Source of the DNA: Candidatus Hinthialibacter antarcticus | GTDB lineage: Bacteria > Hinthialibacterota > Hinthialibacteria > Hinthialibacterales > Hinthialibacteraceae | Length of the DNA: 42,657 bases | NCBI GenBank assembly: GCA_030765645.1 | Contig: JAVCCE010000033.1 | Coordinates: forward strand, 1-42,657 | Reading direction: 5' to 3' | Part shown: piece by piece, positions 28,254-31,910 of the stretch | How positions within the stretch are numbered: the stretch's first letter is position 1 | Layout: every line of letters starts with the position of its first letter | The notes under the pieces: model-generated | Database searches by the model: none | Told to the model about the DNA's origin: nothing | Seen by the model: the letters and a program-made list of their open reading frames with translations, nothing else | Translations under genes and position numbers: made by a program

Positions 28254-29330
28254 TTAAATCGGTCGATTGATGTCCTGGCGTAGGCGGCGCAATTGTTGCA
28301 TGGCGTCCCACTCTGGCTTTAAGGTTTGGAACACCGATTGCGCGGCTTCCAAACGGGAAATCATGCTGTCCAGGCACTTTTCAATCATCAGCCATAGGGC
28401 TTCTGCGAATGGTACTGTGCTGCCGTCGTTGGGCGCTGCGCGTTCGGCGCGTAATGAGCACCGCGCCGTTTCGTAGGCTTCGACGTACATTTCGCTTGAG
28501 TAGAGGCTGTTGATTTCCATGAGCGTTTTGATGCGTCGCCAGGGCCAGTCCATCGTTTCAGACGCATCCTCAATTTCGTGATTCGCTAAGTCGTCGATTT
28601 GAGCCGCGCGCCAAACCAAGCCGGATATCCAGGCCGGGTTCGAACTGCCCGTTGTATTTTCTTCAATCATCCAAATAACGTCCGAGCCTGCCGGCGCATC
28701 GGTAAGGGCAGCGCTAAGGTCAAGTTTGAAGCCGCCCGTCGCGCTTGCATTCAGAGAGACTTCGCGGTTCCAAGTCGAATCTGTGGTAGAGCGAAAACGG
28801 CATTGATACGATGAATCAAGGCTCAAGCCCGCTAGACGCACAGGGCTTTCTGCCGGATACGCGGCGGTGCAAAAAAGAGGATGAAACGTCGGCAGGTCCG
28901 CTGCTGGAATATTGCGGCGCTGAGACGGGTATACCATACGCGCCGCAGAAGCGCCTCGATGGGCTGGGGCCGGAACCAGGCGGCCTGTCAGCGACTCAAG
29001 CGAGGTTTGGAGATTGCGCACTTCAGTTTGGACCGCATCGCTGGCGCAGTTGCCTAATTGATTGAGTAAGGTTTGGACTTGTTCGTACCAATTCAAATTT
29101 GACGCATTGCCTGCCCACTCTTCGATCAATGACAGGGTAGAGGGCTGTTTGAGCCAGGGCGTTTGGACGGCGCTAAAAAAGAGGTCTTGCGCATTGTGGA
29201 TTGACGGAGTCTCGTCTGTATCCTCAATGAATGGCGCAGGCGTTTGCAAATCAGTAAGCGCCTGTTCAACCAGAGCCTGTAAGGTTTCGTTCTCAGGGGC
29301 GCTATGAGGGTTGGTACGGCGGGTATTCAT
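28254..29330 (-). CDS. Unknown protein in sigma-like operon (beta-rich middle, helical C-terminus)
   Basis: The product is 358 residues and has no signal peptide or membrane helix. The first 120 residues are mostly helical and polar. Residues 145-242 look like an Ig-like beta-sandwich (SPVRLAGLSLDSSYQCRFR, then SDVIWMIEE). Residues 245-358 are helical, with tetratricopeptide-like spacing (MYVEAYETARCSLRAER, FAEALWLMIEKCLDSM). No catalytic motif is seen. It starts 12 nt after the sigma-like stop, and its AAAGGTG ribosome-binding site overlaps that stop, so translation is coupled. Sigma/anti-sigma pairs are often arranged this way, so it may bind the sigma-like protein. That is inference. Confidence 0.7.
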   Translation of the reverse strand: MNTRRTNPHSAPENETLQALVEQALTDLQTPAPFIEDTDETPSIHNAQDLFFSAVQTPWLKQPSTLSLIEEWAGNASNLNWYEQVQTLLNQLGNCASDAVQTEVRNLQTSLESLTGRLVPAPAHRGASAARMVYPSQRRNIPAADLPTFHPLFCTAAYPAESPVRLAGLSLDSSYQCRFRSTTDSTWNREVSLNASATGGFKLDLSAALTDAPAGSDVIWMIEENTTGSSNPAWISGLVWRAAQIDDLANHEIEDASETMDWPWRRIKTLMEINSLYSSEMYVEAYETARCSLRAERAAPNDGSTVPFAEALWLMIEKCLDSMISRLEAAQSVFQTLKPEWDAMQQLRRLRQDINRPI

Positions 29331-29342
29331 TGTTAGTCACCT

Positions 29343-30884
29343 TTATATTTCGTCGCCGAAGATCAACGCAATCTGCTTTCGGCACTGGTTCCATAAATAA
29401 TCGACGGTGCCGCGCGGCGCTTTAAGAATCTCGCCAATTTCAGCGTTTGTCTTGCCTTCCGCTTTGAGACGGGCGAGTTCGTCGCACCGGATTTCTTTGT
29501 CCTTATAGGTAATCGTTATGGTCTTAAGCACAGCTAGAATTCGTTCCAAATCGTGCGAATCGCGCCAATCGTCGGTCTGGCGGGCGGAATGAGACACCAA
29601 TTCTTCCGACGACATATCATCCAGGTTTTTTCCGGTGTGGTAGACGCCTAACGCCTGGGTGGGATTAAATTCGCCGTCAGTTTGTTGGCCTGTTTCCGCT
29701 GTAGACGGCTCGATATGGATATGTTTGCGTATGCGGTCGATGAGGCGGCGTTTCAGAATGTAGAAGATCGCGCTTTCGAAGCCAATATCGCACATCCAGG
29801 GCGGCATGAAGCGCTCAATTTCGCTGGTTGTGACGATACAATCGCCGGATTGGTTCGAGACGCAATGATACACCTGTTCCTGATAGTCCTTCATCAAGAG
29901 TGAGGCGCCGCGTCGGGTTTGAATTTTTGTCGATTTGAATTGCTGCAGGTTACAGGCGGGCGGCAGCACGTCTCCGAACAGTTGTTGGAAGCGGCTTTTT
30001 TCATTCTTTTCAAGCACAACTGGTTTGTGCGCGTCGTCGATCGAAATAACGATGACCTGATCTTCGGTAACTTGCGCCGCAATTTTATTTTCACTGGCGG
30101 AAAAGAACGGAGCGCGCCATTCATCCGAATGACTTCTTGAACAATACGGCGCCAACGAGTGCTTTGCGATCAATTCTTGGGTTTCTATCGACCAGATCGA
30201 CAAGACCCGGTCAGAATGCAACAAGGCCAAGCGTTTTGTCTCGGCGTCAACGGAGGCGTGAGTGACCATTGATTGCTTCCAGCCGCGCATCCCTTCCGGG
30301 GGGAAGACAATCGGCTCGCTTTCGCCCGATTTCCATACGCGGGCGGAATGGTCAGACAGGCATTTCACGATTTCTTCGAGTGCGGCGCTATAGAGATCGC
30401 CCCGCACGGTTTCGGCGTCTAAGCCTGCCCGCTGGATCGAAGACGCATAGCGCTGGGCTGCGTGTCCTGAAGCGCGTTCTAACAATTGGCAATGACAATT
30501 CACGCCCTTCAATATTAAAGGCGCATGGTTGTCCGCGCGTGGGTCATAGAGGCGTTCTACGGTTTCGGGCGCATAAAAAAATGATGACGTTGCGGACGAT
30601 GCAATGGTATCGAATTTCTTTTTTTGCGTGGCGGAATCGAGCGACTGGCGCTTGAGGTGATTGATCTTGCTGAATAGGCGTCGCGCCGCGCTGAAGGACG
30701 CTATGCGCCGCCAGTCGGTTTCATCTAAATCATCAATCGGGGAGTCTGAAACGGATTGATATGCACAGGCGGCTGTTTGCTTCAGCCAGACGGATTGTTG
30801 CGACTCATCGAACTGTGATTGAAGGGCGTCTTGTAAACACTGTTGAAAAAGGTCCATGCCTGCTTTTAGGTGAATCAAATTCAT
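29343..30884 (-). CDS. Sigma-70-like protein with region 2 split by WD40-like insert
   Basis: The 513-residue protein has a C-terminal region-4 HTH (about 447-510): ELARLKAEGKTNAEIGEILK, then APRGTVDYLWNQCRKQI. Region 2 appears in two pieces. The first is GLDAETVRGDLYSAALEEI (154-172), like the start of ECF region 2. The second is FESAIFYILKRRLIDRIRKH (369-388), like its end. Between them lie about 190 residues with repeated blade-like units such as SDHSARVWKSGE, HSDRVLSIWSIETQEL and TEDQVIVISIDD. The N-terminal 150 residues are unassigned. It should bind RNA polymerase and DNA, but this is not certain. The ATG at 30884 lacks a good Shine-Dalgarno; Met10 (30857) is an alternative. It is the middle gene of a three-gene operon. 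Confidence 0.72.
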   Translation of the reverse strand: MNLIHLKAGMDLFQQCLQDALQSQFDESQQSVWLKQTAACAYQSVSDSPIDDLDETDWRRIASFSAARRLFSKINHLKRQSLDSATQKKKFDTIASSATSSFFYAPETVERLYDPRADNHAPLILKGVNCHCQLLERASGHAAQRYASSIQRAGLDAETVRGDLYSAALEEIVKCLSDHSARVWKSGESEPIVFPPEGMRGWKQSMVTHASVDAETKRLALLHSDRVLSIWSIETQELIAKHSLAPYCSRSHSDEWRAPFFSASENKIAAQVTEDQVIVISIDDAHKPVVLEKNEKSRFQQLFGDVLPPACNLQQFKSTKIQTRRGASLLMKDYQEQVYHCVSNQSGDCIVTTSEIERFMPPWMCDIGFESAIFYILKRRLIDRIRKHIHIEPSTAETGQQTDGEFNPTQALGVYHTGKNLDDMSSEELVSHSARQTDDWRDSHDLERILAVLKTITITYKDKEIRCDELARLKAEGKTNAEIGEILKAPRGTVDYLWNQCRKQIALIFGDEI

Positions 30885-30944
30885 TTCAGGATGGGACGAT
30901 CATAAAAGAGAGGAGCGTGGCTGGCAAGAAGCGCTGTTCGCTTC

Positions 30945-31910
30945 TCATCCGCCCAACCAACTTTTAAACGCCGACGAAAAATCTTCCATCATGGTTTTGA
31001 CGCCGGAATCAGCGCCGCCGGATTTTTCTTGCGGCGGCTTATATTTGAGGTCGCTGTATTGAATCAAGATTCCAAGAAATCCACAGACGCTTTTAATCAT
31101 GCCCGCTTCACCCTGAAGGTTCGTCAGGTGAGATGACAGGATTGTATTCAGGTTTTTTACATAATCGCGGGTAATGCGGGCCTCGAGTTTTGGCAGTTCC
31201 AGGCCTCGATTGTCTAACGCGTCAAACGCTTGTTTCAGCGCTTTGACAAAGGCGGCGTCGGTTTGTAATTTTTTCGCGTGGGGGCTCGAAGGCTCCGCGT
31301 TGATTAAGACGCCGAGATATTCATTAAAAATTCCAACCAGAGTTTGTTCGCATTCATAGACTTCGGCTTGCGCCTCCAGTAATTCTTGAATTGCTTGGAT
31401 GTAATGGCCAACCATGTTCAACACTTGATCGTAGGTCGGCTTAACCTCTTCTTCGCTGCGCATATAGTTGATGAGTTCTTTTTTCGCGTGATAGGTTTGT
31501 ATGGCGCGGTCGGGACATTTACCCTCAAGGCGGCGAAGAAGGTCGGAATATTTATTGCGCTGGGTGATTTGAAATTTTTCGTATCGACTGATGAATAGAA
31601 AGTAACTAATTTTTTTACAGCAGGATACAGAGTCAAGCGCATCTTGGTAGGTATCGTCATCAGAGGTTGTTATATAGGCGGGCAGCATTTCGTAGTCTTC
31701 AAACGGCTTGGTTTTCACGCCGCGCCGCCGATCTGCAAATAATCGGTTTTTTGCCGAGTTGCGGAAAACGATTTCGACATTCTCCATCACAAGAGGGCCA
31801 TGCGGACACAGTTTGACCGATTCCTCTGGCGAGGGAGCGGGAACGTCTTTCTGGAGTTCCGCAGCGATGTCTTCTTTAACTTGTTTTGCTGCGTGAATGT
31901 ACGCTTCCAT
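30945..31910 (-). CDS. Helical protein of unknown function, first gene of the sigma-like operon
   Basis: The product has 321 residues and no signal peptide or membrane segment. After a CPHGP-containing N-terminal region (residues 35-39) it is mostly alpha-helical and rich in charged residues and Gln/Glu, with a cysteine pair (SVSCCKKI) near the middle and a glycine-rich C-terminus. I do not recognise a family. The ATG at 31910 has AAGGAT 4 nt upstream. It precedes the sigma-like gene by 60 nt and starts the operon, opposite the divergent secreted-protein gene. Confidence 0.65.
   Translation of the reverse strand: MEAYIHAAKQVKEDIAAELQKDVPAPSPEESVKLCPHGPLVMENVEIVFRNSAKNRLFADRRRGVKTKPFEDYEMLPAYITTSDDDTYQDALDSVSCCKKISYFLFISRYEKFQITQRNKYSDLLRRLEGKCPDRAIQTYHAKKELINYMRSEEEVKPTYDQVLNMVGHYIQAIQELLEAQAEVYECEQTLVGIFNEYLGVLINAEPSSPHAKKLQTDAAFVKALKQAFDALDNRGLELPKLEARITRDYVKNLNTILSSHLTNLQGEAGMIKSVCGFLGILIQYSDLKYKPPQEKSGGADSGVKTMMEDFSSAFKSWLGG

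Follow-up and report, generated by a model that had tools for sequence, protein, structure and literature searches.

The window analysed here (42,657 nucleotides; contig 33 of the 5.1 Mb genome assembly of Candidatus Hinthialibacter antarcticus) contains an intact open reading frame on the minus strand (29343-30884) that encodes a sigma-like protein of 513 aa. The frame had been described with these limits before and stands; its start, however, is probably not 30884 but 30857 (M10 of the listed ORF), because the start codons of the homologues align to M10 and a promoter-like sequence, TTGCCA-17-TATGAT, lies 41 nt before it. The whole gene thus probably occupies 29343-30857. The predicted sigma-70-type promoter consists of a -35 element TTGCCA (30922-30927, minus strand), a 17-bp spacer and a -10 element TATGAT (30899-30904, minus strand). 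A TTGNNN-16/17-TANNAT motif was present upstream of the start in all six homologous loci, and none of 300 shuffled sets was as good. The sigma-like gene is probably read by the housekeeping sigma factor.

A second gene on the same strand (28254-29330), here called the partner gene, begins 12 nt downstream and encodes 358 aa. It is adjacent to the sigma-like gene in all six genomes that carry the latter and is the sole neighbour common to all six loci; no copy outside these six was detected among 61 genomes searched. The partner of the window showed no Pfam or NCBIfam match, and no known anti-sigma domain was matched. It is predicted to be soluble, with no membrane span. A structural model revealed an FnIII-like beta core (about residues 154-241) between helical parts, and weak FnIII matches were obtained; a fold search returned FnIII-like fragments only and no significant match. 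The partner proteins, found solely next to the sigma-like gene, form an orphan family in which the motif RRRAIExADLPxFxPLFCTAIDP is conserved. Based on the gene order, we propose that the sigma-like protein binds its partner. The gene upstream (30945-31910, minus strand) does not appear to be a further component of the system, since it neighbours the sigma-like gene in the window and the nearest relative alone and lies elsewhere in the other four family genomes. Its 321 aa product is a member of a family with several copies in these genomes (at most five matches in each), has no Pfam family and displayed a weak PADLOC match to LmuB (E=0.001). For the sigma-like protein and the partner, PHROGs and PADLOC gave no phage or defence assignment.

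The domain topology of the sigma-like protein was derived from alignments, profile searches and an AlphaFold model built from 7 sequences (mean pLDDT 74.7, pTM 0.61; its residue numbers are shifted by 9 relative to the listed ORF). All parts lie on the minus strand. An N-terminal helical domain (residues 10-123; 30516-30857), recognised by its AlphaFold helices and without a Pfam or NCBIfam match, is followed by the putative first half of sigma region 2 (regions 2.1/2.2; residues 124-178; 30351-30515), an insert that is partly WD40-like (residues 179-359; 29808-30350), and the second half of region 2 (regions 2.3/2.4; residues 360-389; 29718-29807). A linker predicted to be disordered from its low pLDDT (residues 390-444; 29553-29717) leads to region 4 with its helix-turn-helix (residues 434-510; 29355-29585), after which the protein ends. 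No membrane span was predicted. In the model, helices flank the beta-rich insert on either side, and those at 122-145 and 157-176 correspond to the 2.1/2.2 part and fit regions 2.1 and 2.2 in length. The segment GLDAETVRGDLYSAALEEI, with which region 2 had been said to begin, does lie at 154-172, yet the region starts earlier, with the first of these helices. The segment FESAIFYILKRRLIDRIRKH (369-388), near the end of region 2, and the region-4 helix-turn-helix at about 470-505 were found as first reported. The N-terminal helical domain, the downstream partner and a cysteine-rich second insertion in relatives are missing from the preliminary description.

A search with the sigma70-ECF model TIGR02937 matched residues 358-505 (E=2.3e-7, 30.6 bits), which bears out the initial sigma-70-like assignment. 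The four other full-length copies match over the same part with 20.7-32.0 bits; all five native copies stay below the curated cut-off of 42.9 bits, as does the window protein when its two halves are joined (39.8 bits), and the same genome holds 28 ordinary sigma matches above it. Regions 2 and 4 are present without region 3; regions 2.3/2.4 and 4 are identified by TIGR02937 and regions 2.1/2.2, with moderate strength, by profile-profile comparison. The frame encodes a sigma-70-derived protein of ECF-type descent, which is likely to be a working sigma factor and may bind core RNA polymerase.

In sigma factors, a short loop of region 2 serves to read the -10 element. In M. tuberculosis (Mtb) SigH this specificity loop reads a flipped -10 base, on which W81 stacks (PMC6411747). 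An alignment with Mtb SigH placed the insert after the region 2.2 helix and ahead of the residues that match the last part of the specificity loop (SigH 72-79) and W81. All five full-length copies carry it at this one site, so that region 2, which is continuous and has a short specificity loop in ECF factors, is interrupted by a stretch of 181-183 residues. The base-stacking tryptophan is absent, since an alanine invariant in the family (A372) aligns with SigH W81. Of the DLxQE motif of region 2.2, only the glutamate is kept, DLLQE of an ECF factor of the same genome being aligned with SAALE. Motifs of this kind form part of the sigma surface facing the beta-prime coiled coil. The window protein may therefore have lost the canonical contacts with core and -10 element; if it is a working sigma factor, its contacts with the core enzyme and the -10 element must differ from those of an ordinary ECF factor, because of the change of W81 to alanine and the reduction of DLxQE to its glutamate.

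These substitutions bear directly on the main rival explanation, namely that the protein is a sigma-derived DNA-binding regulator and no longer a sigma factor. In that case DNA would be bound through region 4 and the 2.4 helix, the altered region 2 would no longer bind core RNA polymerase, and insert and partner would make the protein a repressor, an activator or a scaffold. A core-contact motif of region 2.2 that is not conserved, the missing tryptophan of the specificity loop, the TIGR02937 score below the cut-off and a family-specific motif, VDYxWNQC, in region 4 would all fit such a protein. However, the six genomes show strong conservation of every sigma part, among them the RLIDxIRK helix of region 2.4, and region 2.2 varies widely among ECF factors in general. 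We regard this explanation as possible and rather unlikely.

Whether residues 124-178 really supply regions 2.1/2.2 was analysed by leaving the insert out. With residues 179-359 removed and the N-terminal domain trimmed, the TIGR02937 score of the window protein was 39.8 bits (E=3.3e-10) instead of 30.6, and the match started at model position 16 in place of 45. Gains were obtained in all three copies tested, the two others improving by 7-9 bits (L004 from 23.0 to 31.9, L005 from 21.0 to 27.9 bits). As a sliding control, 55-column segments taken from across the part preceding region 2.3 were each fused to the C-terminal half, and the resulting profiles were aligned by hhalign with profiles of the genome's own sigma factors, using 50 slid segments and 60 column-shuffled versions. 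Against the genome's ECF factors, the C-terminal half alone scored 45.2 and the joined residues 124-178 scored 54.1, compared with at most 51.5 for overlapping neighbours, 50.3 for other segments and 48.6 for the 60 column shuffles. Against all sigma factors of the genome, the corresponding scores were 53.3 for the C-terminal half and 59.7 with the true segment, and at most 57.2, 55.6 and 56.9 for neighbours, other segments and shuffles. Residues 124-178 were thus the best of the 50 slid segments, and the joined profile covers the ECF template from residue 2.

Other comparisons leave room for an unsplit region 2, in which residues 124-178 would be an unrelated helical domain, fused with a WD40-like module and a sigma part running from region 2.3 to region 4. 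A plain HMM of the genome's ECF factors showed no gain on joining in three of the five copies, and a deletion scan over position and length with the same HMM gave 2-14 bits, without a clear optimum in three of five, and so does not add to the case for the split. The C-terminal half alone accounts for most of the profile-profile score, and a search of PDB sequences with the joined-copy profile retrieved no sigma chain. Such a fusion is nevertheless improbable in our view: the profile-profile gain is largest for residues 124-178 in precisely this register, the TIGR02937 gain recurs in every joined copy tested, and the AlphaFold helix lengths fit regions 2.1 and 2.2. The proposed split of region 2 is hence upheld with moderate strength, limited by the plain HMM result in three of five copies and the missing PDB sigma chain. 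The comparisons support the split, though not overwhelmingly, and the two halves may fold into one sigma-2 domain.

Searching PDB sequences with a profile of the insert revealed 114 matches at E<=0.01, and the 60 of these that were listed were all WD40 proteins or designed WD40 repeats. Pfam searches likewise returned WD40 families for every full-length copy (best E=4e-5). Foldseek matched the insert to WD40 propellers with probability 1.00, mostly over 80-120 columns and in some cases at about 2-3 A, the best match amounting to roughly one quarter to one third of a propeller. That the insert is WD40-like, in blade sequence as well as in fold, agrees with the initial suggestion of a beta-propeller-like insert of about 190 residues; the extent is corrected to 179-359, and a closed propeller, which usually has seven blades, is not formed. 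The AlphaFold model displays a four-stranded blade at residues 207-243 (30156-30266, minus strand), recognised by sequence profile as well, a second blade at 260-292 (30009-30107, minus strand), weaker by sequence and identified by AlphaFold and Foldseek, and a mixed segment up to residue 352. A full beta-propeller is unsupported because only two blades, one sure and one probable, are identifiable in the 181 residues. The three units previously regarded as blade-like, SDHSARVWKSGE, HSDRVLSIWSIETQEL and TEDQVIVISIDD, are present about 45-50 residues apart, which is roughly the spacing of WD repeats. They represent successive strand-pair motifs, the first directly after the sigma helix, and not three blades: one blade is certain and a second is given by the model. 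Since the Foldseek matches mostly span 80-120 columns, the insert appears as a partial propeller or WD40-like sheet without closure. No homologue of the insert was found elsewhere in the same genome.

Each of the six genomes in the window's family has the sigma-like gene once, in one of them broken by a contig end, and the gene was absent from the other eight of the 14 genomes of the phylum in the collection searched. The broken copy, in G002, is cut inside the insert and lies on two contigs (C48 and C90; L019 and L020), whose ends overlap by about 50 residues with 98% identity. A joined profile without the insert, run against 290 genomes, found the six family members; in the 284 genomes outside the family it revealed only weak, partial matches, mostly to the helix-turn-helix end (E>=1e-4). 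Homologues with the insert are thus known from the six family genomes, and homologues lacking it were not found in the 290. Scanning named genomes with the alignment located the gene on four contigs, a scan with the single protein gave no match, and viral contigs contained no relatives. Four of the six family members (L003, L004, L005 and L007) carry eight conserved cysteines between regions 2.4 and 4, in a zinc-ribbon-like pattern (CxxC...CxxC...CPxGC...CPxC); this cysteine-rich second insertion gave weak zinc-ribbon matches. The window protein and its closest relative are without these cysteines; in the window protein, this place is taken by the linker of about 55 residues predicted to be disordered.

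Conservation of the same layout, with its insert of 181-183 residues, in five full-length homologues is more than chance would be expected to produce and argues against a spurious gene. A decaying or spurious gene, i.e. a sigma factor broken by chance insertion, would suit the sub-threshold matches and the confinement to one bacterial family, but is hardly credible, because the intact frame, the size and site of the insert, the promoter and the partner are kept across genomes whose copies of this protein are only 28-49% identical.

Taken with the observed domain layout, insert site, conservation, gene pairing and promoter conservation, these results lead us to favour, with some reserve, a lineage-specific ECF-derived regulator with a WD40-like module inside sigma-2 and a co-encoded partner, suggesting a gene switch with a sensor inside its DNA-reading part. 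The sigma-like gene would be transcribed together with its soluble partner from the housekeeping-type promoter. The protein would keep sigma-2 (residues 124-178 and 360-389) and sigma-4 (434-510), with the extra helical domain before sigma-2, and the 181-residue module would interrupt sigma-2 after the 2.2 helix and ahead of the place where the -10 specificity loop would be expected. There it may offer a surface for protein interaction or sensing and, alone or by binding the partner, block or reshape the -10-reading face of sigma-2. Because of this, activity at target promoters would be set by the partner or ligand of the module and not by a membrane anti-sigma factor; the direction of control by module or partner is proposed. 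The preliminary description further suggested that the insert may keep the sigma parts apart until needed. A more specific version, which we put forward only tentatively, is that the protein is an active sigma factor with the WD40-like sensor attached at its specificity loop, so that a bound protein or ligand controls -10 recognition or melting; the partner would be the binder and could complete the propeller.

The window protein resembles ECF sigma factors (group 4, such as Mtb SigH and B. subtilis SigW) in having sigma-2 and sigma-4 without sigma-3, a TIGR02937 match, the RLID-R helix of region 2.4, a region-4 helix-turn-helix, and an immediately downstream gene that may act in regulation. 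It differs from them in its 181-residue insert ahead of where the -10 specificity loop would lie, the alanine in place of the loop tryptophan, the loss of DLxQE in region 2.2, the extra N-terminal helical domain and the score below the cut-off. The partner is comparable to soluble anti-sigma or partner proteins encoded beside ECF genes, being soluble, with a gene that in each of the six genomes follows immediately on the same strand, whereas it matches no anti-sigma family. The non-conserved region (NCR) of primary sigma factors is likewise a large domain inserted beside sigma-2 elements, and in an active sigma factor; it lies between regions 1.2 and 2.1 and is not WD40-like, whereas the window insert lies between regions 2.2 and 2.3.

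Sigma parts and WD40-like repeats are combined in one protein in ECF57 and other WD40 sigma factors as well. In ECF57, however, the repeats form an extension C-terminal to sigma-4 (PMC8999054), which the window protein does not have, and a survey of cyanobacterial sigma factors found accessory domains only at the termini and never between essential domains (PMC11119718). Compared with both, the window protein has its WD40-like part inside region 2 and no full propeller. The preliminary remark that no factor of this form has been described agrees with the literature searched, in which WD40 sigma factors carry their repeats terminally (PMC8999054, PMC11119718) and none has a WD40-like insert in region 2; coverage was partial, and absence from it is no proof. 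A large module sitting exactly at the -10-reading loop throughout a conserved family would mean that a regulatory domain can be accommodated there. It would also provide a natural blueprint for controlling promoter recognition allosterically and, with sigma-like protein and partner, a defined two-gene system from an uncultured lineage for studying it. The more specific version put forward above, if true, would represent a new mode of sigma control, with a sensor inside sigma-2 instead of an anti-sigma factor or a terminal extension.
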